This document shows, one piece after another, positions 10,099-30,885 of a stretch of 64,000 nucleotides of DNA. Positions within the stretch are counted from its first letter, which is position 1. Each line of letters begins with the position of its first letter. The translations under genes were made by a program, and so were the position numbers. The stretch covers positions 3,005,516-3,069,515 of the forward strand of contig NZ_CP133319.1 of the NCBI RefSeq assembly GCF_038811545.1. The letters run 5' to 3'. The notes under the pieces were generated by a model. It was not told where the DNA came from. It saw only the letters and a list, made by a program, of their open reading frames with translations, and did not search any database. This DNA is from Rhodoligotrophos sp. CJ14 (GTDB lineage Bacteria; Pseudomonadota; Alphaproteobacteria; Rhizobiales; Im1).

Positions 10099-10515
10099 AT
10101 GGCCGACTATTTCACGCACTTCTCCTGCCTGCTCAACGTCCGCACGCCCAAAAACGCAGCGCGCGCGCTCGAGCTCTACAATCGCATGCAGGAGGAAGGC
10201 GCCTCAGAAGATCCGCCATCCGAAAGCTTCCTCGTGTCGATCCAGCCCGAATATGGCGGCACACAGCTCTGGATGCGTGATGACGTCACCGGCGATCCCG
10301 AACGCCTGATCCAGTTCGTCAAGCTTTGCGCCAAGGAGTTCAGGCTGACAGGCCGCTGGGGCTTTCAGTACGCCAACACCTGCTCGAAACCCTGCATCAA
10401 CGCCTTTGGTGGCGGCGCGCATGTGCTCGACCTTGCAACCGGTGAGACGGTCGCCTGGACCTATACCGACGGTTGGCTCGCCGAGGTTCTGGACGGAGGC
10501 GATCCCGATGCCTGA
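10099..10515 (+). CDS. ICE-associated protein of unknown function
   Basis: 138 aa (MADYFTHFSCLLNVRTPKNAARALELYNRMQEEG...). The middle alternates strands and acidic turns (FLVSIQPEYGGTQLWMRDDVTGDPERLIQFVKLCAKEF). The C-terminal part (GGGAHVLDLATGETVAWTYTDGWLAEVLDGG) looks like a beta structure. No family name can be assigned with confidence; similar proteins accompany this ICE module. ATG chosen for the AGGAG and hairpin leader. Confidence 0.68.
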   Translation: MADYFTHFSCLLNVRTPKNAARALELYNRMQEEGASEDPPSESFLVSIQPEYGGTQLWMRDDVTGDPERLIQFVKLCAKEFRLTGRWGFQYANTCSKPCINAFGGGAHVLDLATGETVAWTYTDGWLAEVLDGGDPDA

Positions 10516-10556
10516 GGTAATCGAAACAGGACCGCCTTGAAGGACAGTGCAAGAGC

Positions 10557-10760
10557 GTGCGCGACCAGCATGTTGAAAGGTGCTCGCGTCTTTTCCCCTC
10601 CAATGCGCACGAACGGCTCCAGCAACATGCCAAACAATTGTGCGGACAAGCCCTGTTACTTCTCACCTGGGCACGAACAGGATATATCAGCCCCGAGGAA
10701 GACAAGGCCGCCTTGTTCCAGTGGTACAAGGATCGGCAGAGCGCTTCCGCCGAAGACTGA
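10557..10760 (+). CDS. Possible small protein (GTG start)
   Basis: 67 codons from a GTG at 10557. The second half (LQQHAKQLCGQALLLLTWARTGYISPEEDKAALFQWYKDRQ) looks like a real helical protein. No good ribosome binding site precedes the GTG, and two other frames are also open here, so coding status is uncertain. If real, it closes the run of small ICE genes before the leftward EamA gene. Confidence 0.35.
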   Translation: MRDQHVERCSRLFPSNAHERLQQHAKQLCGQALLLLTWARTGYISPEEDKAALFQWYKDRQSASAED

Positions 10761-10846
10761 TCCACGAGCAGCCACAATTCATGCCATTGTGAGCAGGCGC
10801 CGCTCGACTGCATCGAGCAACTGAACTGGTCGCGAAACTACCGCCT

Positions 10847-11776
10847 TCACGAACCGGGGCGCGGCCGACTTCGGACCAGCAGCACCATCGTCACCATCAG
10901 CAAGATGGCACCGGCTATGGCGGACGGCCCGAGTGTCTCGCCAAACAGAGCGAAGGCGAGCGTCGTCGCCGTGAGCGGCTCGGCCAGCGCAATGATGCTG
11001 GCAGGCGTGGCCTGCGTCGCCTTCATCCCGCGGAAATAGAGCACATAGGCCAAGCCTGTCGGAACCAGGCCCATATAGAGAAGTGCGGCCCAGACCTGTC
11101 CTGTCCAAACGCCCGGCGTCATCCCGGCCGCAATGGCGAGCGGCAGCAGCATCACCGCACCCGCGCCGAATCCTGTGACGATGATCTTTCCGGGATCGTG
11201 TCGACCGGCAAGGCTTCGGCTCAGCAGCACGAAGCCGGAATAGGAGAGCGCGGAGCCACATGCCCATAAGATGCCCGCCGGATCGGCGTCTTCGGCTGGC
11301 GGCGTGCCGATCAGCAGAATGGTGCCGATCAGGCCAAGCCCCAGCGCGGTGACAACCGTGCGGGATACCTTCTCGCGTAACAGGATGATCGCCAGAATGC
11401 CGACGATCACAGGCGCCGAGCAAATGGTGATAAGGGTTGCCAGGGCAACGCCGACATCGGCGACGGCCTGGAAATAACACGCCTGATAGGCCGCCATGGT
11501 GAGCCCGATTCCGGCGATGCGCAGGCGGTCGCTGCCGTCGAAGCGGAAGGTCTCCGGACCGAGCCGCCACCAGCACCAGAGACCCAGTAGCGGGACGGCC
11601 AGCGCGAGGCGGAAGAAGCCGACGACCAGCGGCGGGATGTCCTCGATCCCGTAGAGCAGCCGCGAAGCGATGCCGACTGTCCCCCATAGAACGGCCGCGG
11701 CAAGCACCAAAGCCGGGCCGGAAACGGGCGACGGATGAGAGCGCACTCCGCTCGGCTGTCCGCCGGCAGCAGTCAC
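10847..11776 (-). CDS. EamA/DMT-family transporter
   Basis: 309 aa from a GTG at 11776, the usual size of the ten-helix drug/metabolite transporter superfamily (RhtA/EamA type). Two EamA halves are visible: ALVLAAAVLWGTVGIASRLL...PPLVVGFFRLALAVPLLGLW and, from mid-protein, GILWACGSALSYSGFVLLSRSL...LLYMGLVPTGLAYVLYFRGMKATQATPASIIALAEPLTATTLAFALFGE, the typical end of the second half. Predicted inner-membrane exporter of amino acids or small metabolites; substrate unknown. The GTG start overlaps the stop of the upstream PIN gene, and the frame can be extended upstream only in antisense-like sequence. It forms an operon with the PIN/AbrB pair. Confidence 0.87.
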   Translation of the reverse strand: MTAAGGQPSGVRSHPSPVSGPALVLAAAVLWGTVGIASRLLYGIEDIPPLVVGFFRLALAVPLLGLWCWWRLGPETFRFDGSDRLRIAGIGLTMAAYQACYFQAVADVGVALATLITICSAPVIVGILAIILLREKVSRTVVTALGLGLIGTILLIGTPPAEDADPAGILWACGSALSYSGFVLLSRSLAGRHDPGKIIVTGFGAGAVMLLPLAIAAGMTPGVWTGQVWAALLYMGLVPTGLAYVLYFRGMKATQATPASIIALAEPLTATTLAFALFGETLGPSAIAGAILLMVTMVLLVRSRPRPGS

Positions 11777-12607: not shown

Positions 12608-15190
12608 ATGAACATGATTTCTCCATTCGCCGCGGCTTCGGCCGCCGCGCTGCTTCCGCTCGCCTCCGACGCTGACACATCCGCTCCCGTCTTCGCGGCG
12701 GCGGGCCTGTTGCTCCCCCATCTTGAACGCGGCCAGCGCATCGACGCCGCCACGCTGCGCGCCGCGATGGAAAGCGCCTTCGGCGCATCCGACGCCACCG
12801 GCGCCTGGGACTGGAAAACGGCATACGAGGCCTGCGAGGCCGCAACCGTCCTCTTCCTGCGCAAGTACGGAACGGCGCTTTTCCGTAAAGCCGCGTCTCC
12901 GGCTGCTCGCCTTTCCGCTTTGACGAAAATCGCCAGCCTCCTTCCGACGCACACGCGCCGCTCCGAGGAAGCTCAGACCTTCCAGCAATTCTCCACCCCG
13001 ATCCCGCTCGGCCTGGTCGCGGCAAATGCCGCCGCCATCACACCGGCCGACCGTGTGCTGGAGCCTTCGGCCGGCACCGGCCTGCTCGCCATCCTCGCCG
13101 AGATCGCCGGCGCCACCCTCATGCTCAACGAGCTCGGCGAGATGCGCGGCGGTCTTCTCTCTTCTCTCTTTCCGGCCGTTTCCGTCACGCGCTTCGACGC
13201 CGCCCAGATCGACGATCATCTCGATCCGGCCGTGGCGCCAAGCGTGGTGCTGATGAATCCGCCATTCTCCGTCATGGCCAATGTCGAGGGTCGCGTCGCG
13301 GATGCCGCCTTCCGCCATGTGGCCTCGGCGCTCGCGCGTCTCGCTCCCGGCGGACGGCTTGTGACGATCACCGGCGCCGGCTTCGCGCCCGACAATCCGG
13401 CCTGGGCTTCCGCTTTCGCCCGTCTGCAGGAGCGCGGCCGCATCGTCTTCTCGGCGGCAATCGACGGCTCGGTCTATGCCAAGCACGGCACGACCATCGA
13501 CACGCGCCTGACCGTCATCGACAAGCTGCCCGCCGACGACCCGTCATCTTTTCCAGCTTCCCCCGGCGTCGCCTCCGACACCGCCACGCTGATGGGCTGG
13601 TTGGACGAGCTCCTGCCGGCACGGCCTCCGGTCGCTCCGTCCGTTGTCGTTCCTGTACCGGCCGTGTCTACGCCCCGCAGTGTACGCGGCTATCTGAACC
13701 GTGCTGCCAAAGCCGCTCCAGCCGCGCCGATGGCGGAGCCCGAGGGTCTGCCGCTTGCCTATGAGACCGTCGACTGGCAGGACGGCGAAGCAGGCCGGCT
13801 CTCCGATGCCATCTATGAGGAATACGGACTTCAAGCGATCCGTATCGCCGGCTCTCAGGCGCACCCGACCAAGCTCGTGCAGTCGGCGGCCATGGCCAGC
13901 GTCGCGCCGCCGAAGCCGAGCTACCGCCCGCGGCTCCCTGCCAATGTCCATGAGCTGCTCTCCGACGCCCAGCTTGAGACCGTGGTTTATGCCGGCGAGG
14001 CCCATTCCAACTATCTCGCCGGGTCCTGGACCATCGACGACACCTTCGATGTCGTCACCGCCGCGCGCGAGGATGCGAAGAACGCCGTCCGCTTCCGCCG
14101 CGGTTTCATGATCGGTGACGGCACCGGCGTCGGCAAGGGCCGTCAGTCCGCCGCGATCATTCTCGACAACTGGCTCCAGGGCCGCCGCAGGGCGGTGTGG
14201 ATTTCGAAGTCGGACAAGCTTCTGGAGGACGCGCAGCGCGACTGGTCGGCGCTCGGCATGGAGCGATTGCTGGTCACGCCGCTGTCGCGCTTCCCGCAAG
14301 GCAAGCAAATCTCGCTGGCGGAAGGCGTCCTATTTACAACCTACGCCACGCTACGCTCCGACGATCGCGGAGAGAGGGTTTCGCGCGTCAAGCAGATCGT
14401 CGAATGGTTGGGCTCCGACTTCGATGGAGTGATCATTTTCGACGAGGCGCATTCGATGCAGAACGCCGGTGGCGGCAAGGGAGAACGCGGTGACATCGCC
14501 GCCTCGCAGCAGGGCCGTGCGGGCCTACGGCTCCAGCACGCACTTCCGAACGCGCGCGTCGTCTATGTCTCGGCGACCGGCGCCACCACGGTTCACAATC
14601 TCGCCTATGCCCAGCGGCTCGGGCTGTGGGGCGGCGAGGATTTTCCGTTCTCGACGCGCGCCGAGTTCGTCGAGGCGATCGAAGCTGGCGGTGTCGCCGC
14701 CATGGAGGTGCTGGCACGCGACCTGCGTGCGCTCGGCCTCTATACCGCCCGCTCGCTCTCCTTCGATGGCGTCGAATATGAGCTGGTCGAGCACACGCTG
14801 ACGCCGGAGCAGACCCGCATCTACGACGCCTATGCCGGGGCCTTCGCGGTCATCCATAACAATCTCGACGCGGCCATGGAGGCGGCCAACATCACCGGTA
14901 CCGAGGGCACGCTGAACAGGCAGGCGAAGTCGGCAGCCCGCTCGGCCTTCGAGAGCGCCAAGCAGCGTTTCTTCGGCCATCTGCTGACGTCGATGAAGAC
15001 GCCGACCCTGATCCGGTCGATCAAGCACGATCTGGAGGAAGGCTATGCCGGCGTCATCCAGATCGTCTCCACCGGCGAAGCGCTGATGGAGCGACGGCTC
15101 GCCGAGCTTCCGACCGAGGAGTGGAACGACGTCCGCGTCGACATCACGCCGAGGGAATACGTATTATCCGGAACTCCGGATAAGACGTAA
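12608..15190 (+). pseudogene. Strawberry-notch-like methylase/helicase, 5' part, interrupted by the RIT element
   Basis: The N-terminal ~850 codons of a large protein of this ICE family. Residues ~150-220 form a methyltransferase-like domain (VLEPSAGTGLLA, motif I; VVLMNPPFS around 215, motif IV). Residues ~500 on form the first RecA-like lobe of a strawberry-notch helicase: GDGTGVGKGRQSA (Walker A, ~503), FDEAHSMQNA (DEAH, ~612) and VYVSATGATT (motif III). The frame runs into the inserted element after REYVL and stops within nine codons at 15188-15190. The remainder, including the second helicase lobe, resumes at 21467. The intact product would be about 1,450 aa. Preceded by leader copy D. 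Unless the element excises precisely, the helicase is inactive. Confidence 0.9.
15164..15183. repeat. Palindromic site at the left end of the RIT element
   Basis: TTATCCGGA-AC-TCCGGATAA, nine-base perfect arms with a two-base centre, lying between the interrupted codon and the left 158-bp repeat. It has no counterpart at the right end, so the element is asymmetric here. It is a good candidate for the recombinase core/binding site left at one end after integration. Confidence 0.6.
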
Positions 15191-15345
15191 TATGCCGCGT
15201 CGGCGTTATGCTGAGTTCGGGGTTTCAAGGTGTTGTTCTTCTGATTCATTTTCGGGTTTCCGCTTTGGATAATCATGATGCCTCTGCTCTCAACCGCAGA
15301 AGGACATCCCCTCATGAACTCCCCCTCGAACTCTCCGCTCGGCGG
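15188..15345 (+). repeat. Left terminal inverted repeat of the RIT element (158 bp)
   Basis: Base-for-base reverse complement of 21308-21465; compared through its whole length by eye, with no mismatch found, and three further bases match after one mismatch. The first recombinase starts inside it (ATG 15314), so the first ~10 codons of that protein are encoded by the repeat. Confidence 0.92.
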
Positions 15346-16840
15346 CCATCTCGAAGCCGACGACCGCACTCTCGTCCGCACCTATTGCGCGGACAATCCC
15401 CGACTTTCGGCGGGCGCGCTGAGCGCCGCCCGGCATTTCCTGAAGTGGGCACGCGCGCGGAAGATCCCGATCAGAGACCTCGACGCATCGGCCGTTGATC
15501 GGTTCTTGCGCCATCGCTGCCGCTGCGACCGCTACAGCCCTACCCAGTTGAAGTGCCCCGTGTATGCGGCCGACACGCGCCGGTTTCTTCGATATCTGGA
15601 AGATTCCGGGGTGGTCATGATTGCCGATGATGTCGCACGGCTCGGGCAATATCTGCAGGCCTATGCCGGGAAGCTCAGCGCCGCCCGTTACAGCGAAGTG
15701 ACTTATTCGATGCGACTGAGCCAGGCCCGCCATTTCGCGGAATGGGCGCTGCAGATGCGTGTTCCGGCCCACGGGATCGACGATGCCATTGGCGACCAAT
15801 TCGCACATCATGATTGTCGCTGCGGGATCAAGACCAAGCGCGGCAAACGGGTCGAAGGTTCCGGCATCAGGGATCGTCGTCGTGGCGCTCGTGCTTTTGT
15901 CCGGTTCCTGCGGGAGCAGAGTTTGATCCCGCCCGCAGCGCCTGACTGTGTCACCGCCTGCGATCCGCGCCTGACCGAGTTCTCGGAATGGCTACGCCGC
16001 GAACGTGGGGTAACGTCCGAGACCGTGCGGCGCTATGTGAACGAAGCGGGCCGCTGGCTGGATCGCCTTGTGGCAGCCCAGAAGGATTACGACGCGGCGG
16101 CAATCCGGTCGATCGTTCTGGATCAGGGCGAAGAGCGCTCCCGATCATCCGTGCGCATGACGGTCACCGTGCTGCGCTCCTTCCTGCGCTTCACCATCAT
16201 TCAAGGTGAATGCGCCCCGTCGCTCCTCCATGCGGTGCCACCCGCTGTTCGTCGCAGGCTTTCGACCGTCCCGCGCACCATACCCACCGCAAAGATCGAA
16301 GAGATCATAGCCTCCTGTCGCACCGATACGCCGGTCGAGATACGGGACCGCGCTATTCTTCTCCTCCTCGCCCGGCTGGCCCTGCGCGCGGGAGATATCT
16401 GGCAGCTGCGCCTGTCCGACATCGACTGGCGCGCGAGCCGGTTGCGATTGCATGGCAAGGACAGACGGGGTGTCTTGATGCCCCTGCCGCAGGATGCAGG
16501 CGATGCGCTGCTGGCCTATATCGAGAATGCGCGTCCGGTGGTCGCCACGGACAGGGTTTTTCTCCGAACCCAGGCCCCTTTCACCCCGCTGCGATCCGCC
16601 GCCGAGATCGCCGGGATCGTTTCCCGTGTACTTAACCGGGGCGGCTTCGCTGGCTTGCCGACCGGCTCACATGTATTTCGCCATTCACTGGCGTCGGCCT
16701 GGTTGCGCGGCGGTGCGGATCTCGACCAGATCGGTGTCGCGCTGCGCCACACCTCGCGCGATACGACATCGATCTATGCGAAGGTAGATGTGGAGATGCT
16801 GGCAGACGTGGCTCAGCCATGGCCGGGGTGTGCATCATGA
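15314..16840 (+). CDS. RIT tyrosine recombinase 1
   Basis: 508 aa, the longest of the trio. It has two core-binding-like N-terminal regions (with Cys/His-containing insertions HRCRCDRYSPTQLKCP and HHDCRCGIKTKRG) and a C-terminal catalytic domain with Arg in ARLALRAGDIWQLRLSDID, HVFRHSLAS (HxxR), LRHTSRDTTSIYAKV (His...Tyr nucleophile). The Cys/His clusters are unusual and might bind zinc. ATG 15314 lies in the inverted repeat; an in-frame start at 15275 is also possible. Its stop overlaps the second recombinase start. Confidence 0.9.
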   Translation: MNSPSNSPLGGHLEADDRTLVRTYCADNPRLSAGALSAARHFLKWARARKIPIRDLDASAVDRFLRHRCRCDRYSPTQLKCPVYAADTRRFLRYLEDSGVVMIADDVARLGQYLQAYAGKLSAARYSEVTYSMRLSQARHFAEWALQMRVPAHGIDDAIGDQFAHHDCRCGIKTKRGKRVEGSGIRDRRRGARAFVRFLREQSLIPPAAPDCVTACDPRLTEFSEWLRRERGVTSETVRRYVNEAGRWLDRLVAAQKDYDAAAIRSIVLDQGEERSRSSVRMTVTVLRSFLRFTIIQGECAPSLLHAVPPAVRRRLSTVPRTIPTAKIEEIIASCRTDTPVEIRDRAILLLLARLALRAGDIWQLRLSDIDWRASRLRLHGKDRRGVLMPLPQDAGDALLAYIENARPVVATDRVFLRTQAPFTPLRSAAEIAGIVSRVLNRGGFAGLPTGSHVFRHSLASAWLRGGADLDQIGVALRHTSRDTTSIYAKVDVEMLADVAQPWPGCAS

Positions 16841-17748
16841 TGCATCACCATGTCGACCGCTTCGTCCGTCTCAACCGCGCCCTCGGAATGAAGTTTGCCG
16901 CGCAGGAGACATCCCTGCACGCTTTTGCGGATTTTACCGCAGAACGATCCATCACGCACGTGACGGCCGCGCTGATACTGGAATGGGCCGGTGGCGCATC
17001 GACGCCGGATGCCGCGCAGGCCCGGTTTGATCGCGCTCGCGCGCTCGCGGTGTTCCTGCATGCGGAAGATGCGCAGCACGAGATTCCGGCGATGGGCCTG
17101 CTGGGCCGTTCACGACGACGGCGACCCGCCCCGCATATTCTGAGGCGGGACCAGATCAGTCGGATCATGCAGGAAGCGCTTCTGGTGCCCGGTCTGACGC
17201 CGATCAGCCCGCTGACATACCACAACCTGTTCGGGCTGCTTGCTTCGACAGGCTTGCGGATTTCGGAAGCCTTGTCCCTGCAGCGCGATGACCTGACAGA
17301 GGACGGTCTCATGATCCGCAAAGGCAAGTTCGGCAAAAGCCGCCTCGTGCCGATACATCCTTCAACCCGCGCCGCTCTGGACCGGTATCTCGATGCCCGC
17401 AACAGCATGCGCAATGCGAGTGATGACCTCTTCGTTCTGGGCCATGGCCGTGCCCCGACGGCGACCAGGGTTTACGTGGTCTTTGTTCAGATCGTGCGCA
17501 AGCTCGGCTATCGCAACCCGACAGGTCCTGGCCCCCGTGTGCACGATCTGCGCCATACATTCGCGGTGCGGTCTCTCGAAGCTTGCGGGACCGATCCACA
17601 GGCGGTCTTGCGGCACATGAAGGCTCTGAGCACCTATCTCGGCCATGTCGATATCGCCAATACCTACTGGTATCTTGAGGCCACGCCGGTCCTGCTGAAG
17701 ATAATCGCGTCGACTGCCGAAGAGACCTGGATCGGAGGTGTGGCATGA
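16837..17748 (+). CDS. RIT tyrosine recombinase 2
   Basis: 303 aa from ATG 16837 (ATG 16840 or 16819 also possible). Phage-integrase-type catalytic domain: LLASTGLRISEALSLQRDDL (catalytic Arg), KSRLVPIHPSTRAALDRYL (Lys on the beta hairpin), VHDLRHTFAV (HxxR), STYLGHVDIANTYWYLEA (His and Tyr nucleophile). Overlaps recombinase 1 by four bases and recombinase 3 by four bases, showing one translationally coupled unit. Probably acts with the other two on the element ends. Confidence 0.9.
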   Translation: MMHHHVDRFVRLNRALGMKFAAQETSLHAFADFTAERSITHVTAALILEWAGGASTPDAAQARFDRARALAVFLHAEDAQHEIPAMGLLGRSRRRRPAPHILRRDQISRIMQEALLVPGLTPISPLTYHNLFGLLASTGLRISEALSLQRDDLTEDGLMIRKGKFGKSRLVPIHPSTRAALDRYLDARNSMRNASDDLFVLGHGRAPTATRVYVVFVQIVRKLGYRNPTGPGPRVHDLRHTFAVRSLEACGTDPQAVLRHMKALSTYLGHVDIANTYWYLEATPVLLKIIASTAEETWIGGVA

Positions 17749-18749
17749 CCCCGCTCGCTCCCGACCTTTCAGCCTTCCTGCAAACCCACCTCCCGGGCGA
17801 ATGCGGAGCAAGCCGACATACCATCGCGGCCTATGCCCATGCATTCACCCTCCTATTGCGTTTCGCCGCCGGGCGGCTCAAGCGAACCCCTTCCGAACTT
17901 GCCATCGAGGACCTCGACGTTCAGATGGTCAGGGCGTTCCTCGAACACATCGAAGAAGGGCGTGCCAATTCAGTCCGGTCTCGCAACGCGCGACTGGCGG
18001 CGATCAAATCGTTCTTCCGCTTCGTCGAGCACCGGCACGCGGTATGCCTTGAGCAGGCGATGATGATCCGGGCCATGCCGATCAAGCGGACAGAAGCCAA
18101 GCTGATCGACTATCTCACCAAGGAAGAAGTCCGAGCCTTGCTTGCGGCACCGAACCGCCACACGCCAGGTGGATTGCGGGACCGGGCCATGCTGCATCTG
18201 GCCTACGCAGCAGGGTTGAGGGCCTCCGAGTTGCTCGCGGTGCGGATGAATGACTTTCCCGAGGGGTCGTTTTCCAGCGTGCGGATTCTGGGCAAGGGGC
18301 GACGCGAGCGCATCCTGCCTCTCTGGAAAGAGACCCAGTCTACCATTCGCGCTTGGCTGGCCGTCCGCCTAAGCAATGTGGGGCCTGAACTGTTCCTGAA
18401 CCGTGATGGCCGTCAGATGACGCGGGACGGGTTCGCCTACAGGCTCAGGCAGCATGTGGCGACAGCAGAACGCTCGGCCCCGTCGATCGCCGCAAAGCGC
18501 GTCACCCCGCATGTGTTGCGGCACAGCTGCGCCATGCATACGCTTCAGGCCACGGGCGATATCCGCAAGGTCGCGCTCTGGCTCGGTCATGCCAGCATCC
18601 AGACGACGGAGATATATCTGCGCGCGGATCCGACCGAGAAGCTCGCGCTTCTGGATGCGCATCATGCTCCGCTGATCAAACCCGGCAAGTTCCGGGAACC
18701 CTCGGACAAGCTGATGCAGATATTGGCCGTCGCCACACAGAGATCCTGA
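17745..18749 (+). CDS. RIT tyrosine recombinase 3
   Basis: 334 aa. SAM-like N-terminal core-binding domain (HTIAAYAHAFTLLLRFAAG...RNARLAAIKSFFRFVEHR), then the catalytic domain with YAAGLRASELLAVRMNDF (Arg), KGRRERILPLWKET (Lys), TPHVLRHSCAMHTL (HxxR), LGHASIQTTEIYLRA (His, Tyr). Closest in appearance to XerC/D-type integrases. ATGA overlap with recombinase 2. Ends 40 bases before the convergent primase-helicase gene. Confidence 0.9.
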   Translation: MTPLAPDLSAFLQTHLPGECGASRHTIAAYAHAFTLLLRFAAGRLKRTPSELAIEDLDVQMVRAFLEHIEEGRANSVRSRNARLAAIKSFFRFVEHRHAVCLEQAMMIRAMPIKRTEAKLIDYLTKEEVRALLAAPNRHTPGGLRDRAMLHLAYAAGLRASELLAVRMNDFPEGSFSSVRILGKGRRERILPLWKETQSTIRAWLAVRLSNVGPELFLNRDGRQMTRDGFAYRLRQHVATAERSAPSIAAKRVTPHVLRHSCAMHTLQATGDIRKVALWLGHASIQTTEIYLRADPTEKLALLDAHHAPLIKPGKFREPSDKLMQILAVATQRS

Positions 18750-18766
18750 CTGATCGGGCAGAATTG

Positions 18767-18789
18767 GCGTCCCGCTTTCGGCGGGGCGC
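18767..18789. terminator. Hairpin between convergent recombinase and primase-helicase genes
   Basis: GCGTCCCGC (18767-18775) and GCGGGGCGC (18781-18789) form a strong stem with loop TTTCG, touching the stop codon of the minus-strand gene. It lacks a T-tract, so termination is only inferred from the position between convergent genes. Confidence 0.4.
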
Positions 18790-21230
18790 TATTCCATCAC
18801 ATAGCCGAGCGCCCGATAACCGGTTCTTCGTTTGGCGGCCATCTTGGCAAGGACCGGGACCGAACTGTCGACATAGTCAACCACCAGCACGTCTTTCTTT
18901 TCGTCGTGCCGCCGATGCAACCTGCCGACATATTGCGCCAACGTGCCTTTCCAGGCGATCGGCATGGTCAGGAACAGGGCATCGAGCCGGGCGTCATCAA
19001 AGCCCTCGCCGATATAGCGCCCTGTCGCGAGGATCAGCCGTTCCTCATCGTCATCGACATTCAGCGCCGCATGCGCGGCCTTCCGGTCCTTTGCGGACAT
19101 GCCGCCACGGAGTACGACAATGTTCTTCGCAAATCGGGAGAACCGCTGCTTGAGATACTCAAGGTGATCCTTCCGCTCAGTCAGTACGATCGGTGAGCGT
19201 TTGGCCTCAAGCGATTTCAGCACGTCATTGAAGATCAGATCGTTTCGGGCTTCGTCCTCCGCCAAAGCGGCATAGATCGCGGGCATGGACGGGCGTTCGG
19301 CCATGGCGAGGGCCTCCGGCAATCTAAATCTCGTGTGACGTTCCCGCGCCCGATGGTGAATGCCGCTTTCTGCGGCCTGTGATTTGGCACTCACTTGATG
19401 GCGCACCGGACCGCATTGCATGAAGATGATCGGGTGATGCCCGTCTTTTCGGGCGACCGTTGCCGACAATCCCGTGACATAGCGCGCCTTCGATCTGCGG
19501 GCGACAAGCTCAAAGCTTGCAGCGGACAGGTGATGGCACTCATCAACGACAAGATGGCCGTAATCGGCAACGATATCGTCAACTTCGCCCTTGCGAACCA
19601 GGCTCTGGATCAGCGCCACGTCGATCACACCGGTGGGTTTGCGCTTTCCGGCGCCAATGGTGCCGATCTGCTTCGGGTCGATCTGCAGAAAGGACCGAAG
19701 GCGCTCAACCCATTGGCTAAGGAGTTCGCGACGGTGAACCAGAACCAGCGTACCGCGGCCACGATGTGCGATCAGCGCCGAGGCCACGACCGTCTTGCCG
19801 AATGCGGTCGTGGCGGCAAGCACGCCGGTATCGTGTTCGGCCAATGCGTCAAACGCTCGCGATTGCGGCTGGCGAAGTTCGCCACGGAAGCGGACCGTCG
19901 CCGGCAAGCGGGTTCCGTCTTCGCGCAAATCGTCCAGATCGGCTGTCGCACCGTGATCGGACAGGAATCCGATCGCTTCGTCGAAGCTGCCGCGCGGCAG
20001 GGCGACGTGTCGGGGATGCAGTTCGGCACAGGACACAATTCGCGGCTTGCCGAATGTCGGCAGTCGCATCGCCTGCGCGCGATAGAATTCAGGGTTCTGG
20101 AACGCGGCCAACCGCACCAGTTGGGCAATCATGGCCGAAGGCAGCTCCGAACGGTCGATATAGACCTGGTCTGCGAGCGTCACCTTGATGGTCGGTGGAA
20201 CGGGAACATCGAGGCGGCGCGCCGTGCTGCGACGTGACGGAGACATCTTCCAGGGTTCGTCTGCCTGTTCGTCATCCACCGGCATGCGCACGCCCAGCAC
20301 CCGCCCGGAAAGCTCGGCGGCTTCGACGAGCTTGGTCACCGCTGCCGCCGACAATCTCGGCAGAGAGGACAAATAGGCCCACTGATCGTCATATGGCCGC
20401 ATGCCCGCGTCCACAAAGACGCTGTTGCCAGCCTTGCGCGCAGTGCTCTGGAGCGGCAGTGCGATCAGGTTTCCGAAGCCGCCAAGCGGCATGATATCCT
20501 GGTTTGGAAACAGCCGGTCATAGGAAGCAAAGCCGATTTCCGGCCGCCGTTCCATCGTTTCCGTGATCAGAACCGACCCAAGCTGGCGTGCCAGACGGGC
20601 GGCTACCGGTTCGGAGAAGAAGATCCAGATATGACCGCCGTTCCCAGACCTCGATCGTTCCAGCGCTGCAGGAACTCCCTTTGCCCGACAGGTTTCGAGC
20701 AGCGCATTGGCGTCTTCCGCCCAGGATGCCTTGTCAAAATCCGCCGCCAGGAACCAGCACGTATCACCCGATAGCAGCGGATAGACGCCGGCGACAAAAT
20801 CTCCGCTTCGGCCATCATCACCGCGCAGGTGTTTTTCAATGGCGCTTTCGTCCAGCGGGATGAACTTCTGATGGGGGCATTCGCCACATTTGACCTTCGG
20901 CTTGCCGCATATGCCCTTCACCCATTCGTTGGCACAAGCAGGCGAATATCCTGAGCGACCGGTCTTCCTGTTTTCCCATCGCACCGGGAATACGTCAGGC
21001 CGACCGGTGAACAGGCGGCGGAACAGATCAACCTTTTCGTGCGACGGCGAGGCATTCGTGACGGGGGCGTTCTCGAAGGAGGGCTGTTTCACAGTTGGCA
21101 CGGGCTCTGCAACGAGACGAACCTCAAGTGCCTCCATCTCGCGCTGAAGCTCACGCCGCTCGGCATCCAGATCGGCCAGGCGCGCTCGAACCCGCGCCAG
21201 GTTCGCCTCAATATCGCTCTTGTCGGTCAC
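18789..21230 (-). CDS. TOTE-type archaeo-eukaryotic primase fused to SF2 helicase
   Basis: About 813 aa from GTG 21230 (GGTGGA upstream); starts at 21269 or 21305 would add up to 25 residues reaching the inverted repeat. Order: a short coiled coil (DIEANLARVRARLADLDAERRELQREMEAL); a cysteine-containing segment (CANEWVKGICGKPKVKCGECPH), probably zinc-binding; an archaeo-eukaryotic primase domain with FLAADFDK (catalytic D-x-D), SRSGNGGHIWIFF and LFPNQDIMP; then an SF2 helicase with TAFGKTVVASALI (Walker A), VVDECHHLS (DECH), GLSATVAR and ATGRYIGEGFDDARLD...YVGRLHRR. This matches primase-helicases described in TOTE conflict systems, thought to act against invading DNA or transcripts. It occupies the RIT element, convergent with its recombinases. 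No nuclease domain is present. Confidence 0.85.
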   Translation of the reverse strand: MTDKSDIEANLARVRARLADLDAERRELQREMEALEVRLVAEPVPTVKQPSFENAPVTNASPSHEKVDLFRRLFTGRPDVFPVRWENRKTGRSGYSPACANEWVKGICGKPKVKCGECPHQKFIPLDESAIEKHLRGDDGRSGDFVAGVYPLLSGDTCWFLAADFDKASWAEDANALLETCRAKGVPAALERSRSGNGGHIWIFFSEPVAARLARQLGSVLITETMERRPEIGFASYDRLFPNQDIMPLGGFGNLIALPLQSTARKAGNSVFVDAGMRPYDDQWAYLSSLPRLSAAAVTKLVEAAELSGRVLGVRMPVDDEQADEPWKMSPSRRSTARRLDVPVPPTIKVTLADQVYIDRSELPSAMIAQLVRLAAFQNPEFYRAQAMRLPTFGKPRIVSCAELHPRHVALPRGSFDEAIGFLSDHGATADLDDLREDGTRLPATVRFRGELRQPQSRAFDALAEHDTGVLAATTAFGKTVVASALIAHRGRGTLVLVHRRELLSQWVERLRSFLQIDPKQIGTIGAGKRKPTGVIDVALIQSLVRKGEVDDIVADYGHLVVDECHHLSAASFELVARRSKARYVTGLSATVARKDGHHPIIFMQCGPVRHQVSAKSQAAESGIHHRARERHTRFRLPEALAMAERPSMPAIYAALAEDEARNDLIFNDVLKSLEAKRSPIVLTERKDHLEYLKQRFSRFAKNIVVLRGGMSAKDRKAAHAALNVDDDEERLILATGRYIGEGFDDARLDALFLTMPIAWKGTLAQYVGRLHRRHDEKKDVLVVDYVDSSVPVLAKMAAKRRTGYRALGYVME

Positions 21231-21307
21231 TCGTGATTTCCACCCAGTCTCTTCCGTCCCGCCCAGCATAATGCGCGGAAGAGACTGGCGTAAGAAGGTT
21301 GGCATGA

Positions 21308-21465
21308 CCGCCGAGCGGAGAGTTCGAGGGGGAGTTCATGAGGGGATGTCCTTCTGCGGTTGAGAGCAGAGGCATCATGATTATCCAAAGCGGAAACCCG
21401 AAAATGAATCAGAAGAACAACACCTTGAAACCCCGAACTCAGCATAACGCCGACGCGGCATATTA
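21308..21465 (-). repeat. Right terminal inverted repeat of the RIT element (158 bp)
   Basis: Reverse complement of the left repeat. It probably contains, on the minus strand, the promoter of the primase-helicase gene, and on the plus strand an ATG (21404) in frame with the 3' half of the strawberry-notch gene, so the repeat could give that fragment a new start. Confidence 0.92.
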
Positions 21466-21466
21466 T

Positions 21467-23257
21467 GTCCTTGACTACCTTGCCCATTCCTTCCCGGTGC
21501 AGCTCTACGAGCCCTTCACCGACAGCGAGGGCAATCTATCGTCGCGTCCGGTCTATCGTGATGGCCAGCCCGTCGAAAGTCGTGAGGCGGTCGCCCGGCG
21601 CAACGCGCTGATCGAGAAGCTCGCCAGCCTGCCACCCGTGCCGGGCGCGCTCGACCAGATCGTCCAGCATTTCGGGATTGATACCGTCGCCGAGGTCACC
21701 GGCCGATCGCGCCGGATCATCCGAAAAACGAGCCCGGGCGGTGTCGATCGACTCGTGGTCGAGAACCGTGCGGCGGCCGCCAATCTCGCCGAGACGCAGG
21801 CCTTCATGGATGATCAGAAGCGCATCCTGATCTTCTCGGACGCCGGCGGGACCGGCCGCAGCTACCACGCCGAATTGTCAGCGCGGAATACGCGGCTGCG
21901 CGTCCATTATCTGCTCGAACCCGGCTGGAAAGCGGATGCCGCCATTCAGGGGCTCGGCCGAACGCACCGGACGAACCAGGCGCAGCCGCCCTTGTTCCGG
22001 CCGATCGCGACCGACGTGAAGGCCGAAAAGCGCTTCTTCTCGACCATCGCCCGCCGCCTGGACACGCTGGGCGCGATCACGCGCGGCCAGCGCCAGACCG
22101 GCGGCCAGGGTCTCTTCCGGCCCGAGGACAATCTGGAGTCGCACTATGCCCGCGATGCGCTGCGCCAGCTCTATCTGCTGCTGGTGCGCGGCAAGGTCGA
22201 GGGCTGCTCGCTCGACCGTTTCGAAGCCGCCACCGGCCTGAAGCTGATGGATTCCACCGGCATCAAGGACGATCTGCCGCCGATCACGACCTTCCTCAAT
22301 CGACTGCTCGCACTCACCATCGAGCTTCAGGGCATCCTCTTCACCGCTTTCGAGCAATTGCTCAATGCGAAGATCGAGGGCGCTATCGCGTCTGGAACCT
22401 ATGATGTCGGACTGGAGACGCTGACGGCGGAGCGGTTCACGGTGACCGACCGTCAGACCATCTACACGCATCCGGGCACCGGCGCGCAGACGCAGCTCCT
22501 CACCATCACACAGCGCGAGCGCAACCATCCGGTCACGCTCACTGCCGCTCTGGATCACCTCGGCGATCCCCGCGCGAAGCTCCTGATCAACGAGCGATCC
22601 GGGCGCGCAGCCGTCCAGATCCCGACCACCAGCGTCATGCTCGACGATGGCGAGGTCGAACGCCGCGTTCGTCTGCTCCGTCCGATGGAGGCGCACAATG
22701 TCCCGGTCCGGATGATGGGCGAGACCCATTGGATCGAAGCGGGCAATGATGTCTTCGCCGAGGCCTGGAATGCCGAGGTCGCGGAGGTGCCGGAATTCTC
22801 CGACTCGACCATCCATATCGTCACCGGCCTGCTGCTGCCGATCTGGAAGCGGCTGCCCAACGAATCCACCCGCGTCTATCGGCTCCAAACCGATGAAGGC
22901 GAGCGGATCATCGGTCGCAAGGTCTCGCCGGCCTGGGCCGCCAATGCAACCGCGACCGGAACGACTTCGCTCGCGCCGGACGATGCGTTCATGGCACTGA
23001 TGGATGGCCGCACGATCCTCGACCTCGCCGAGGGTCTGCAGCTTCGCCGCAGCCGCGTCATGGGCGCCAACCGGATCGAGCTCACCGGCTTCGACGACAC
23101 CATGCGCGAGCGTCTCACCGCCTATGGCCTCTTCCACGAGATCATCTCCTGGAAGCTGCGCATGTTCGTTCCGGTCGCTGACAACGGACCGGTTGTCCTC
23201 GCCAGGCTGCTCGACCGCTATCCGGTCGAGCGCGTCGGCGAACGGGAGGCCGCGTAA
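21467..23257 (+). pseudogene. Strawberry-notch-like helicase, 3' part after the RIT element
   Basis: Resumes with VLDYLAHSFPVQLYEPFTDSEG, directly continuing the frame broken at 15160. Contains the second helicase lobe and the SNO C-terminal domain: RRIIRKTSPGG, ILIFSDAGGTGRSYHAELS, VHYLLEPGWKADAAIQGLGRTHRTNQAQPPLFRP (motif VI region), then KRFFSTIARRLDTLGAITRGQRQTGGQGLF. It ends overlapping the Toprim gene by one base (TAATG). Read from ATG 21404 in the repeat, a 617-residue product (MNQKNNTLKP...) is possible, so a truncated protein may still be made. Confidence 0.9.
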
Positions 23258-29721: not shown

Positions 29722-30885
29722 ATGACGGCGCGGCATCGCCCATCTCAGGAGCGAGGGCAGCTTGATCTGTTCCATGCGCTCCCGGGCGATTTCGCGCCCC
29801 GCGACGCGCAGGATCTCATGGCCTATCCGTTCTTCTCCCTCTCCAAGAGCCACCGCACGGCCCCGATCGATTTCGTGGCGGGCGACGTCACCATCCGCGT
29901 CGAGGCGGTGCCCGATCACGGCATGGCCACGATCTGGGACGCAGATATCCTGATCTGGGCAGCAAGCCAGATCGTCGAGGCGCGCGACAAGGGTCTGCGC
30001 ACCTCGCGCCTGATGGCCGCCACGCCCTATGAGATCCTCAACTTCATCGGCCGCGGCGTGTCGCTGCGCGACTATCAGCGCCTGAAGGCAGCGCTCGACC
30101 GGCTCCAGTCGACCACCGTCGCCACCTCGCTCCGCCAGCCGGCCGAGCGCCGCCGTCACCGCTTCTCCTGGATCAATGAATGGCAGGAGCGCACCGATCG
30201 ATACGGCAAGCCCGCCGGGATCGAGCTGATCGTGCCGGACTGGTTCTATCGTGCCGTCCTCGACGATGCGCTCGTGCTCACCATCGACCGGGCCTATTTC
30301 GACCTGACAGGTGGGCTCGATCGCTGGCTCTACCGCCTAGTGCGCAAGCACGGCGGCAGGCAGCGCCATGGCTGGCGTTTCGACTTCCGGCATCTGCACC
30401 AGAAATCCGGCAGCCTATCGCCATTCAAGCGCTTCGCCTTCGAGCTGCGCAGCATCATCCAGCGCCAACCCTTGCCGGGCTACACGCTGTTTCTGGAGGT
30501 CGAAGTCGGCGGCCGCCTGCTGCTCGCTTTTGAGCCGTCCGGCGCCTGTGCAAAACCTGTGGATGGCCTCGTGCTATCGGGAACCCGGGATATCGTGCTA
30601 TCAGGAACCGGAGGCTCGTGCTATCGGGAACCCAAACAGGGTCTAAGCTCTGGAAAGAAAAGACATAGTCGCGCCCCTAACTTAGAGTCTAACAAAGAGT
30701 CTAACGTTGAAGAGCGCGCGCGCGATGTGGAAAACATCGCCGGAAGGTCCGAAAGGGACCGCAAATCATCATCTGAAAGTAATGATACACGTCTTACGTC
30801 TTTCCGTAAATCCGTAAACGGCTCCACTTCATCTTCGGACGTCCAGCGACCGTCTTTCGGCGATGACCCGGGAGGCGCGCAATGA
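29722..30885 (+). CDS. Replication initiator protein RepA (plasmid/ICE type)
   Basis: 387 aa. The first ~290 residues match the RepA/RPA replication-initiator family: LMAYPFFSLSKSHRTAPIDF, TIWDADILIWAASQIVEARDKGLRTSRLMAATPYEILNFIGRG, YQRLKAALDRLQSTTVATS, SWINEWQERTDRYGKPAGIELIVPDWFYRAVL, then a second winged-helix-like part. After residue ~280 the sequence becomes repetitive and serine-rich; this stretch coincides with DNA repeats (30569-30632) that look like iterons, so the coding and origin functions overlap. Extrachromosomal replication of the excised ICE would be the expected role. ATGA overlap with parA. Confidence 0.87.
   Translation: MTARHRPSQERGQLDLFHALPGDFAPRDAQDLMAYPFFSLSKSHRTAPIDFVAGDVTIRVEAVPDHGMATIWDADILIWAASQIVEARDKGLRTSRLMAATPYEILNFIGRGVSLRDYQRLKAALDRLQSTTVATSLRQPAERRRHRFSWINEWQERTDRYGKPAGIELIVPDWFYRAVLDDALVLTIDRAYFDLTGGLDRWLYRLVRKHGGRQRHGWRFDFRHLHQKSGSLSPFKRFAFELRSIIQRQPLPGYTLFLEVEVGGRLLLAFEPSGACAKPVDGLVLSGTRDIVLSGTGGSCYREPKQGLSSGKKRHSRAPNLESNKESNVEERARDVENIAGRSERDRKSSSESNDTRLTSFRKSVNGSTSSSDVQRPSFGDDPGGAQ
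30549..30705. other. Candidate replication origin (iterons, DnaA-like box, AT-rich repeats)
   Basis: Three copies of the 17-mer TCGTGCTATCRGGAACC start at 30569, 30593 and 30616, i.e. every 23-24 bp, about two helical turns, on the same strand. CCTGTGGAT (30557-30565) just before them matches most of a DnaA box. After them the DNA turns AT-richer and AGAGTCTAAC is repeated (30684-30693, 30696-30705), 12 bp apart, like the unwinding repeats of iteron origins. All lie inside the 3' end of repA. Confidence 0.68.
30569..30632 (+). repeat. Three 17-bp iterons
   Basis: Copies at 30569-30585, 30593-30609 and 30616-30632; the first and third are identical and the second differs at one position (A for G). 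Spacings of 24 and 23 bp keep them on one face of the helix. Confidence 0.85.

Follow-up and report, generated by a model that had tools for sequence, protein, structure and literature searches.

Organization of the element and its target gene

The stretch of DNA examined here is a 64,000-nucleotide window of Rhodoligotrophos sp. CJ14 (contig NZ_CP133319.1, positions 3,005,516 to 3,069,515), in which an element spanning 15164–21463 interrupts a gene for a strawberry-notch-like (SNO) helicase. The element consists of a trio of tyrosine recombinase genes of the RIT type and a convergent gene for a primase-helicase (PH), whose primase is an archaeo-eukaryotic primase (AEP) of the TOTE kind, all enclosed by inverted repeats. 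It is present as a single copy in this genome, which is assembled as one contig of 4.81 Mb. The features, in coordinates of the window, are as follows.

12608–15190, + strand: SNO 5' half (AAA_34), ending in ...REYV LSGTPDKT and a stop (open reading frame, Pfam)
15158–15163, + strand: core c1 (TACGTA), SNO 5' junction (junction comparison)
15164–15183: 20-bp palindrome P, TTATCCGGAACTCCGGATAA, part of the element (it turns with the element in the locus pair L065/L066)
15184–15189: second core, GACGTA, inverted (junction comparison)
15190–15345: left terminal inverted repeat, containing the likely RitA start, ATG 15314 (repeat search)
15314–16840, + strand: RitA tyrosine recombinase, open frame from 15275 (Pfam; length in Dinoroseobacter shibae)
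16837–17748, + strand: RitB tyrosine recombinase, open frame from 16819 (Pfam; length in D. shibae)
17745–18749, + strand: RitC tyrosine recombinase (Pfam)
18789–21230, − strand: PH, AEP-TOTE primase domain and XPB-like SF2 helicase, open frame to 21305 (Pfam, structures; length in D. shibae)
21308–21463: right terminal inverted repeat (repeat search)
21404–21463, + strand: putative restart leader within the right repeat, with a Shine-Dalgarno-like GGAAACC and an ATG, encoding MNQKNNTLKPRTQHNADAAY in the SNO frame
21464–21469, + strand: core c3 (TATGTC), SNO 3' junction (junction comparison)
21404–23257, + strand: SNO 3' half with element-supplied start, open frame from 21338, Helicase_C_4 (open reading frame, Pfam)

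The recombinases are encoded by three adjacent reading frames in the same direction, all of which match the Pfam family Phage_integrase (E 5.4e-23, 3.9e-18 and 2.4e-33), with overlaps of 4 bp between RitB and RitC and, if RitB starts at 16837, of 4 bp between RitA and RitB. The convergent reading frame of 838 aa matches the AEP-TOTE profile PF22548 (E 3.5e-98, 328 bits against a cut-off of 27) as well as ResIII (2.5e-20) and DEAD (5.8e-10). The likely starts of RitA (15314), RitB (16837) and PH (21230, a GTG) were taken from the lengths annotated in D. shibae, and the PH start fits the finding that five relatives have stops at residues 8–23, upstream of it. The repeats were detected at 15184–15349 and 21304–21469 as 166 nt with 2 mismatches, 158 nt of them perfect, and comparison of junctions placed their outer ends at 15190 and 21463. 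The arrangement described in an initial annotation made from this DNA alone, namely a trio, a convergent primase-helicase, perfect 158-bp repeats and an interrupted gene, is thus confirmed by the Pfam and repeat searches.

The SNO gene is cut between AAA_34, in the left half, and Helicase_C_4, in the right half, and the final residues and stop codon (TAA, 15188–15190) of the 5' half come from the palindrome, core and repeat. Empty sites are common on plasmids, where 489 of 531 matching records contain a single place that covers at least 80% of a 126-aa peptide spanning the rejoined site; among 61 genomes searched, 10 uninterrupted SNO places were found in 7, and the genome of the window itself has only the two separated halves. 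Genes near the element encode a RepA-like initiator, a DUF3363 protein, a type IV secretion system (T4SS) coupling protein and CagX, and a replication initiator, coupling protein and T4SS genes are seen at 29722–52826 of the window. These surrounding replication and T4SS genes suggest that the element is carried by a plasmid or by an integrated conjugative element.

The four genes move together

A RitC scan of the genome_contigs collection gave 38 loci, of which the 30 with at least 79% RitC identity are treated as close relatives; L039–L044 (RitC 23–30%) were set aside. A PH match is present in 25 of the 30; the relatives with a trio only are L031, L032, L033, L034 and L038. Terminal repeats that enclose both trio and PH, the arrangement which the initial annotation had proposed to look for, were found in 18 of the 25 PH-bearing relatives, the others being mostly cut contigs and one (L035) rearranged. 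Among the plasmid matches listed, all 17 records with RitC identity of at least 83% also hold PH.

The most direct evidence of movement comes from D. shibae, Pukyongiella, Sagittula and Gemmobacter, where one strain each carries the element on two plasmids. The paired copies align over 6295, 6291, 6292 and 6341 bp, respectively, at 99.984, 100, 99.984 and 99.984% identity, and the SNO genes around them are 82–91% identical and in inverted order. Near-identical elements within diverged, inverted SNO genes mark recent, separate insertions in opposite orientations, and the presence of the 6.3-kb unit twice in four strains means that the four genes move together, as the initial annotation had supposed. 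PH as a chance neighbour of the trio is ruled out by its occurrence in 25 of 30 relatives together with these four pairs.

Several loci show further features of the repeats and their surroundings. In L063/L064 the two repeats of the identical element differ from each other, which gives a different leader per orientation, both in the SNO frame. L035 has SNO 3' halves on both flanks in inverted order, resembling a recombination product of two copies. L009, L014, L015, L016 and L024 are contigs of 6.0–6.3 kb that end inside both repeats, as is expected because assemblers break at long inverted repeats or multiple copies. L063 (12554–14508) also has a second, different recombinase cluster adjoining the four genes; it seems to lie within the SNO 5' half, and this stretch recurs on the other plasmid (L064 1657–3717, 100%).

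A fixed target and a junction rule

In the paired copies and many other loci, the target is one codon position of SNO, after ...REYV and before LDYLAHSF.... RitC is co-directional with SNO in 17 and opposite in 13 of the 30 scorable loci, a count that excludes L035 with its two 3' halves. The trio-only relatives with readable flanks occupy this same site, and so do the more distant elements of Methylocystis (L095, RitC 67%) and Sphingopyxis (L098, 62%). Since trio-only relatives share the site, PH is not needed for targeting, and the idea in the initial annotation that the element uses PH for its mobility is not supported, five of the 30 close relatives having no PH.

Along SNO, the 5' half is followed by a core (usually TAYGTN), the 20-bp palindrome and an inverted core; then comes the element with a repeat at each end, and a further core borders the SNO 3' half. 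Wherever the palindrome was located, in 27 junctions with L031, L095 and L098 among them, it lies on the SNO 5' side; it was not found in L020, L023, L035 and L038. In the pair L065/L066 the palindrome is off-centre and turns along with the element. On the circle-integration model given next, the cores of one copy of a pair dictate those of the second; all 8 such predictions in the four pairs held for either direction of movement, whereas in 48 control comparisons between strains 25% of the predictions held singly and 4% jointly. This order and both orientations would follow from a circle with a repeat-core-palindrome-core-repeat joint that can use either core. The fixed target, the travelling palindrome, the two orientations and the in-frame restart codon described below are features beyond those given in the initial annotation.

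Inversion by homologous recombination between the repeats, rather than separate integration, could in principle also yield opposite orientations, as the repeats are long and near-identical. We regard this as highly improbable and have rejected it, since the palindrome of L065/L066 turns with its element and in all four pairs, whose copies lie in different plasmids, the cores keep to the repeat ends, in line with what integration predicts.

Possible splitting rather than destruction of SNO

An ATG lies 60 nt before the core and in frame with the SNO 3' half in 28 of the 29 junctions of the SNO clade, where it is preceded by a Shine-Dalgarno-like site of the GGAG or GGAA type. The exception is L023, which has ATA at this position and a SNO 3' half in two pieces. 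All 22 distinct leaders are open in the SNO frame, and both other forward frames contain stops in 22 of 22; L095 and L098, which are kept out of these leader statistics, have an in-frame start as well despite very different repeats. At the opposite junction, the palindrome, core and repeat supply a stop after a short tail of up to ~25 extra residues (none in L098). The SNO halves are uninterrupted in 23 of 26 cases for the 5' half and 29 of 30 for the 3' half. With an in-frame Shine-Dalgarno-like site and ATG on one side and a stop on the other, the SNO gene may be split, possibly into two polypeptides, rather than destroyed.

RITs with PH in other target genes show that a restart codon is not general among RITs. 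Further PH-bearing RITs include L096, in a DUF932 target, and L069, L070 and L084, with DUF736. In L096 (4416–10694) a trio and convergent PH with their own palindrome truncate the DUF932 gene near its 3' end. L069 holds two identical intact DUF736 genes as a 653-bp inverted repeat inside the element (10360–11012 and 14458–15110; see also L084), and these resemble the DUF736 gene that L069 interrupts; such spare copies could be another way to spare the target. None of the three insertions examined for a restart at these other targets, in DUF736 (L069, L084) and DUF932 (L096), has one.

The primase-helicase

PH exceeds the Pfam cut-off for AEP primases and carries the DxD and H motifs, together with motifs that we take to be those of SF2 helicases. 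This match sets aside the possibility, allowed for in the initial annotation, that the protein would prove unrelated to AEP primases. In structure comparisons the helicase half is nearest to XPB (PDB 6p4f, E 3.3e-18) and the primase half to 7nqd/7nqf (7nqd, E 4.9e-9), which we take to be CRISPR-associated PrimPol. The NCBIfam model PrimPol_Msp gives E 1.1e-22 at 80 bits, below its cut-off of 200.

The key motifs are retained in 48 of 48 loci, with one motif unread in one locus. In a sample of 11 chosen loci (55 pairs, of which dS limits left 42, 48, 47 and 39), the median dN/dS of PH is 0.096 (39 pairs), similar to that of RitC (0.085), and PH is thus under purifying selection. At E 1e-60 or better it is present in 9 of 385 genomes of the class.

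The histories of PH and trio have not always been shared. In L030, RitC groups with trio-only elements (support 99/94), as do the palindrome and leader in appearance, and PH falls in the PH clade of the window (100/99), so that these sequences indicate exchange of PH between RITs. The initial annotation had held that trios without PH, along with signs that PH was inserted separately and later, would speak against its four-gene unit; trios of the first kind do exist, in the five relatives, and separate acquisition, as a difference in history, is seen for L030. PH also occurs with transposition genes elsewhere (TniB-TniQ-PH in L079, TniQ-PH in L083, and resolvase-PH-Tn3 transposase in line in L081), and L067, L080, L082 and L086 have PH with no recombination genes nearby. 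A constant tie of PH to RITs is ruled out, as several of the PH homologues opened have no trio nearby. In L068, L101 and L102 an annotated PH gene and one repeat are kept and most of the trio is lost, although these loci are biased towards intact PH because they were found through it. Because PH is exchanged between RITs and lies beside Tni and Tn3 genes, it is read as exchangeable cargo, and we favour a passenger over a mobility gene.

Relation to known elements

RIT elements have been described as trios of overlapping tyrosine recombinase genes whose order is fixed, with an end inverted repeat and palindrome, found as identical copies within strains, D. shibae being named with two, and measuring ~3.5 kb with repeats of 28–29 bp; their mobility had not been shown by experiment (Van Houdt et al., 2012, PMC3414803). 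The present element has the same fixed-order trio in one direction with short overlaps, the same end repeat and palindrome, and, among its relatives, multiple identical copies (four strains with two copies each, against one copy in the genome of the window), and it differs in its size of 6.3 kb rather than ~3.5 kb with recombinases only, repeats of ~158 bp, PH, SNO target and in-frame restart; the RIT section of that paper makes no mention of a fourth gene or a fixed target codon. Published RIT repeats span 28–34 bp, so those seen here are far longer. Because trio-only relatives share its site and ends, the element is filed as a RIT variant with PH, SNO target and restart, of which the trio, short repeat and palindrome are already published.

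The SE and GInt elements, in the sections consulted (PMC10214605, PMC5385486), are comparable in having several tyrosine recombinases, site-specific insertion and circles that may carry few flanking bases (6 bp in SE), and possible copy-out copy-in movement is described for SE, a RIT-like class (PMC10214605). They have a small fourth protein (GinD/Srap) and long cargo of their own, and terminal repeats of the present kind are not described in those sections. In the present element the fourth gene, to which the comparison was confined, is PH and not a GinD/Srap-like protein.

The likeness of PH to AEP-TOTE and CRISPR-associated PrimPol proteins extends to PF22548, PrimPol_Msp and 7nqd; it differs from CRISPR-associated PrimPol in being RIT-borne and fused to an XPB-like helicase, and no Cas genes are seen in the element. 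A parallel for the cores is found in the conjugative transposon Tn916, which carries 6-bp coupling sequences from donor to target, and which has, unlike the present element, one recombinase and no palindrome between two cores. A literature search, which did not extend to Ricker 2013, returned no description of a PH-bearing RIT or of a strawberry-notch insertion, and a search on TOTE with primase returned no paper explaining the name.

Alternative explanations

The account that we consider likely is that of a site-specific four-gene RIT transposon that spares SNO by supplying a stop and a start, and in which PH is a passenger. A number of observations count against it. Of 31 PH-bearing loci, two (L016, L029) have PH broken into two frames or pieces, and the predicted circle joint has 0 matches in viral_contigs, a collection not made for such a search. 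The others concern the restart, and together they support a simpler alternative, in which the insertion inactivates SNO and the repeat ATG and open frame are by-products of constraints on recombinase binding: a scan of the left repeat region (15100–15420) shows no outward promoter-like site; leader pN/pS is 0.72 in frame, only mildly low against 1.29 and 0.97 in the other frames; dinucleotide shuffles give a restart in 7.5–16% of SNO-clade repeats (3.5–4% for L095/L098); and the DUF932 and DUF736 insertions have no restart. The retention of frame and ATG across 22 different leader sequences, and likewise in two elements whose repeats look quite unlike the others, makes inactivation rather unlikely in our view, and the mostly uninterrupted SNO halves point the same way, though a recent insertion could account for them too.

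For PH, two other roles have to be weighed. A plain anti-invader system for which RITs and other transposons serve as vehicles is a serious contender, to which we give somewhat less than even odds: the Pfam name of the domain is that of a TOTE conflict-system primase, the PADLOC matches are to CRISPR-associated PrimPol models, and distant homologues adjoin AbiE, RES or HigB toxin-antitoxin genes or the YhcG nuclease (L092, L094, L082, L088), but PADLOC finds no complete named system and such neighbours are also common on plasmids generally. PH could instead belong to the transposition machinery, priming and unwinding DNA in replicative copy-out, for instance where a single-stranded circle has to be made double-stranded. 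Its constraint, which is like that of the recombinases, its position inside the repeats, the copy-out copy-in movement considered possible for SE in the section cited above, and its place in line with transposition genes in L079, L081 and L083 would all accord with this; we nevertheless hold it to be unlikely, as trio-only relatives with intact trios use the same SNO site, as PH accompanies unrelated recombination chemistries or none at all, and as it outlasts the trio in some copies. A combined version, in which the transposon rebuilds its target as a functional two-polypeptide SNO and PH synthesizes the complementary strand of a copy-out circle that is single-stranded and folds at a ~340 bp palindromic joint (repeat-core-P-core-repeat), seems less likely still.

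Proposed mechanism and implications

In the site-specific transposon with PH as passenger, the three tyrosine recombinases would excise a circle whose joint reads repeat-core-palindrome-core-repeat and is therefore nearly symmetrical. Recombination would then take place between one 6-bp core and the matching SNO codons (TAYGTN, Tyr-Val) on an integrated conjugative element or plasmid. Both cores would be usable, so that either orientation could result, and the palindrome would land on the SNO 5' side. SNO would be cut between its helicase domains. A stop codon would come from one junction, and the repeat at the other would contribute a site resembling a ribosome-binding site, followed by an ATG and ~20 in-frame codons, which could allow the synthesis of two polypeptides and so spare the carrier. 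PH would be a conserved, exchangeable passenger, most likely of benefit to the carrier or host in DNA conflict, defence or repair.

RIT movement is treated as an open question in the sources cited, and the identical pairs, which obey one core and palindrome rule, give it a concrete, testable model. A transposon that spares its target gene through a stop and a start would, if true, represent a new way of living with a carrier plasmid. The passing of PH between unrelated transposons hints at a common need, possibly defence or DNA repair.

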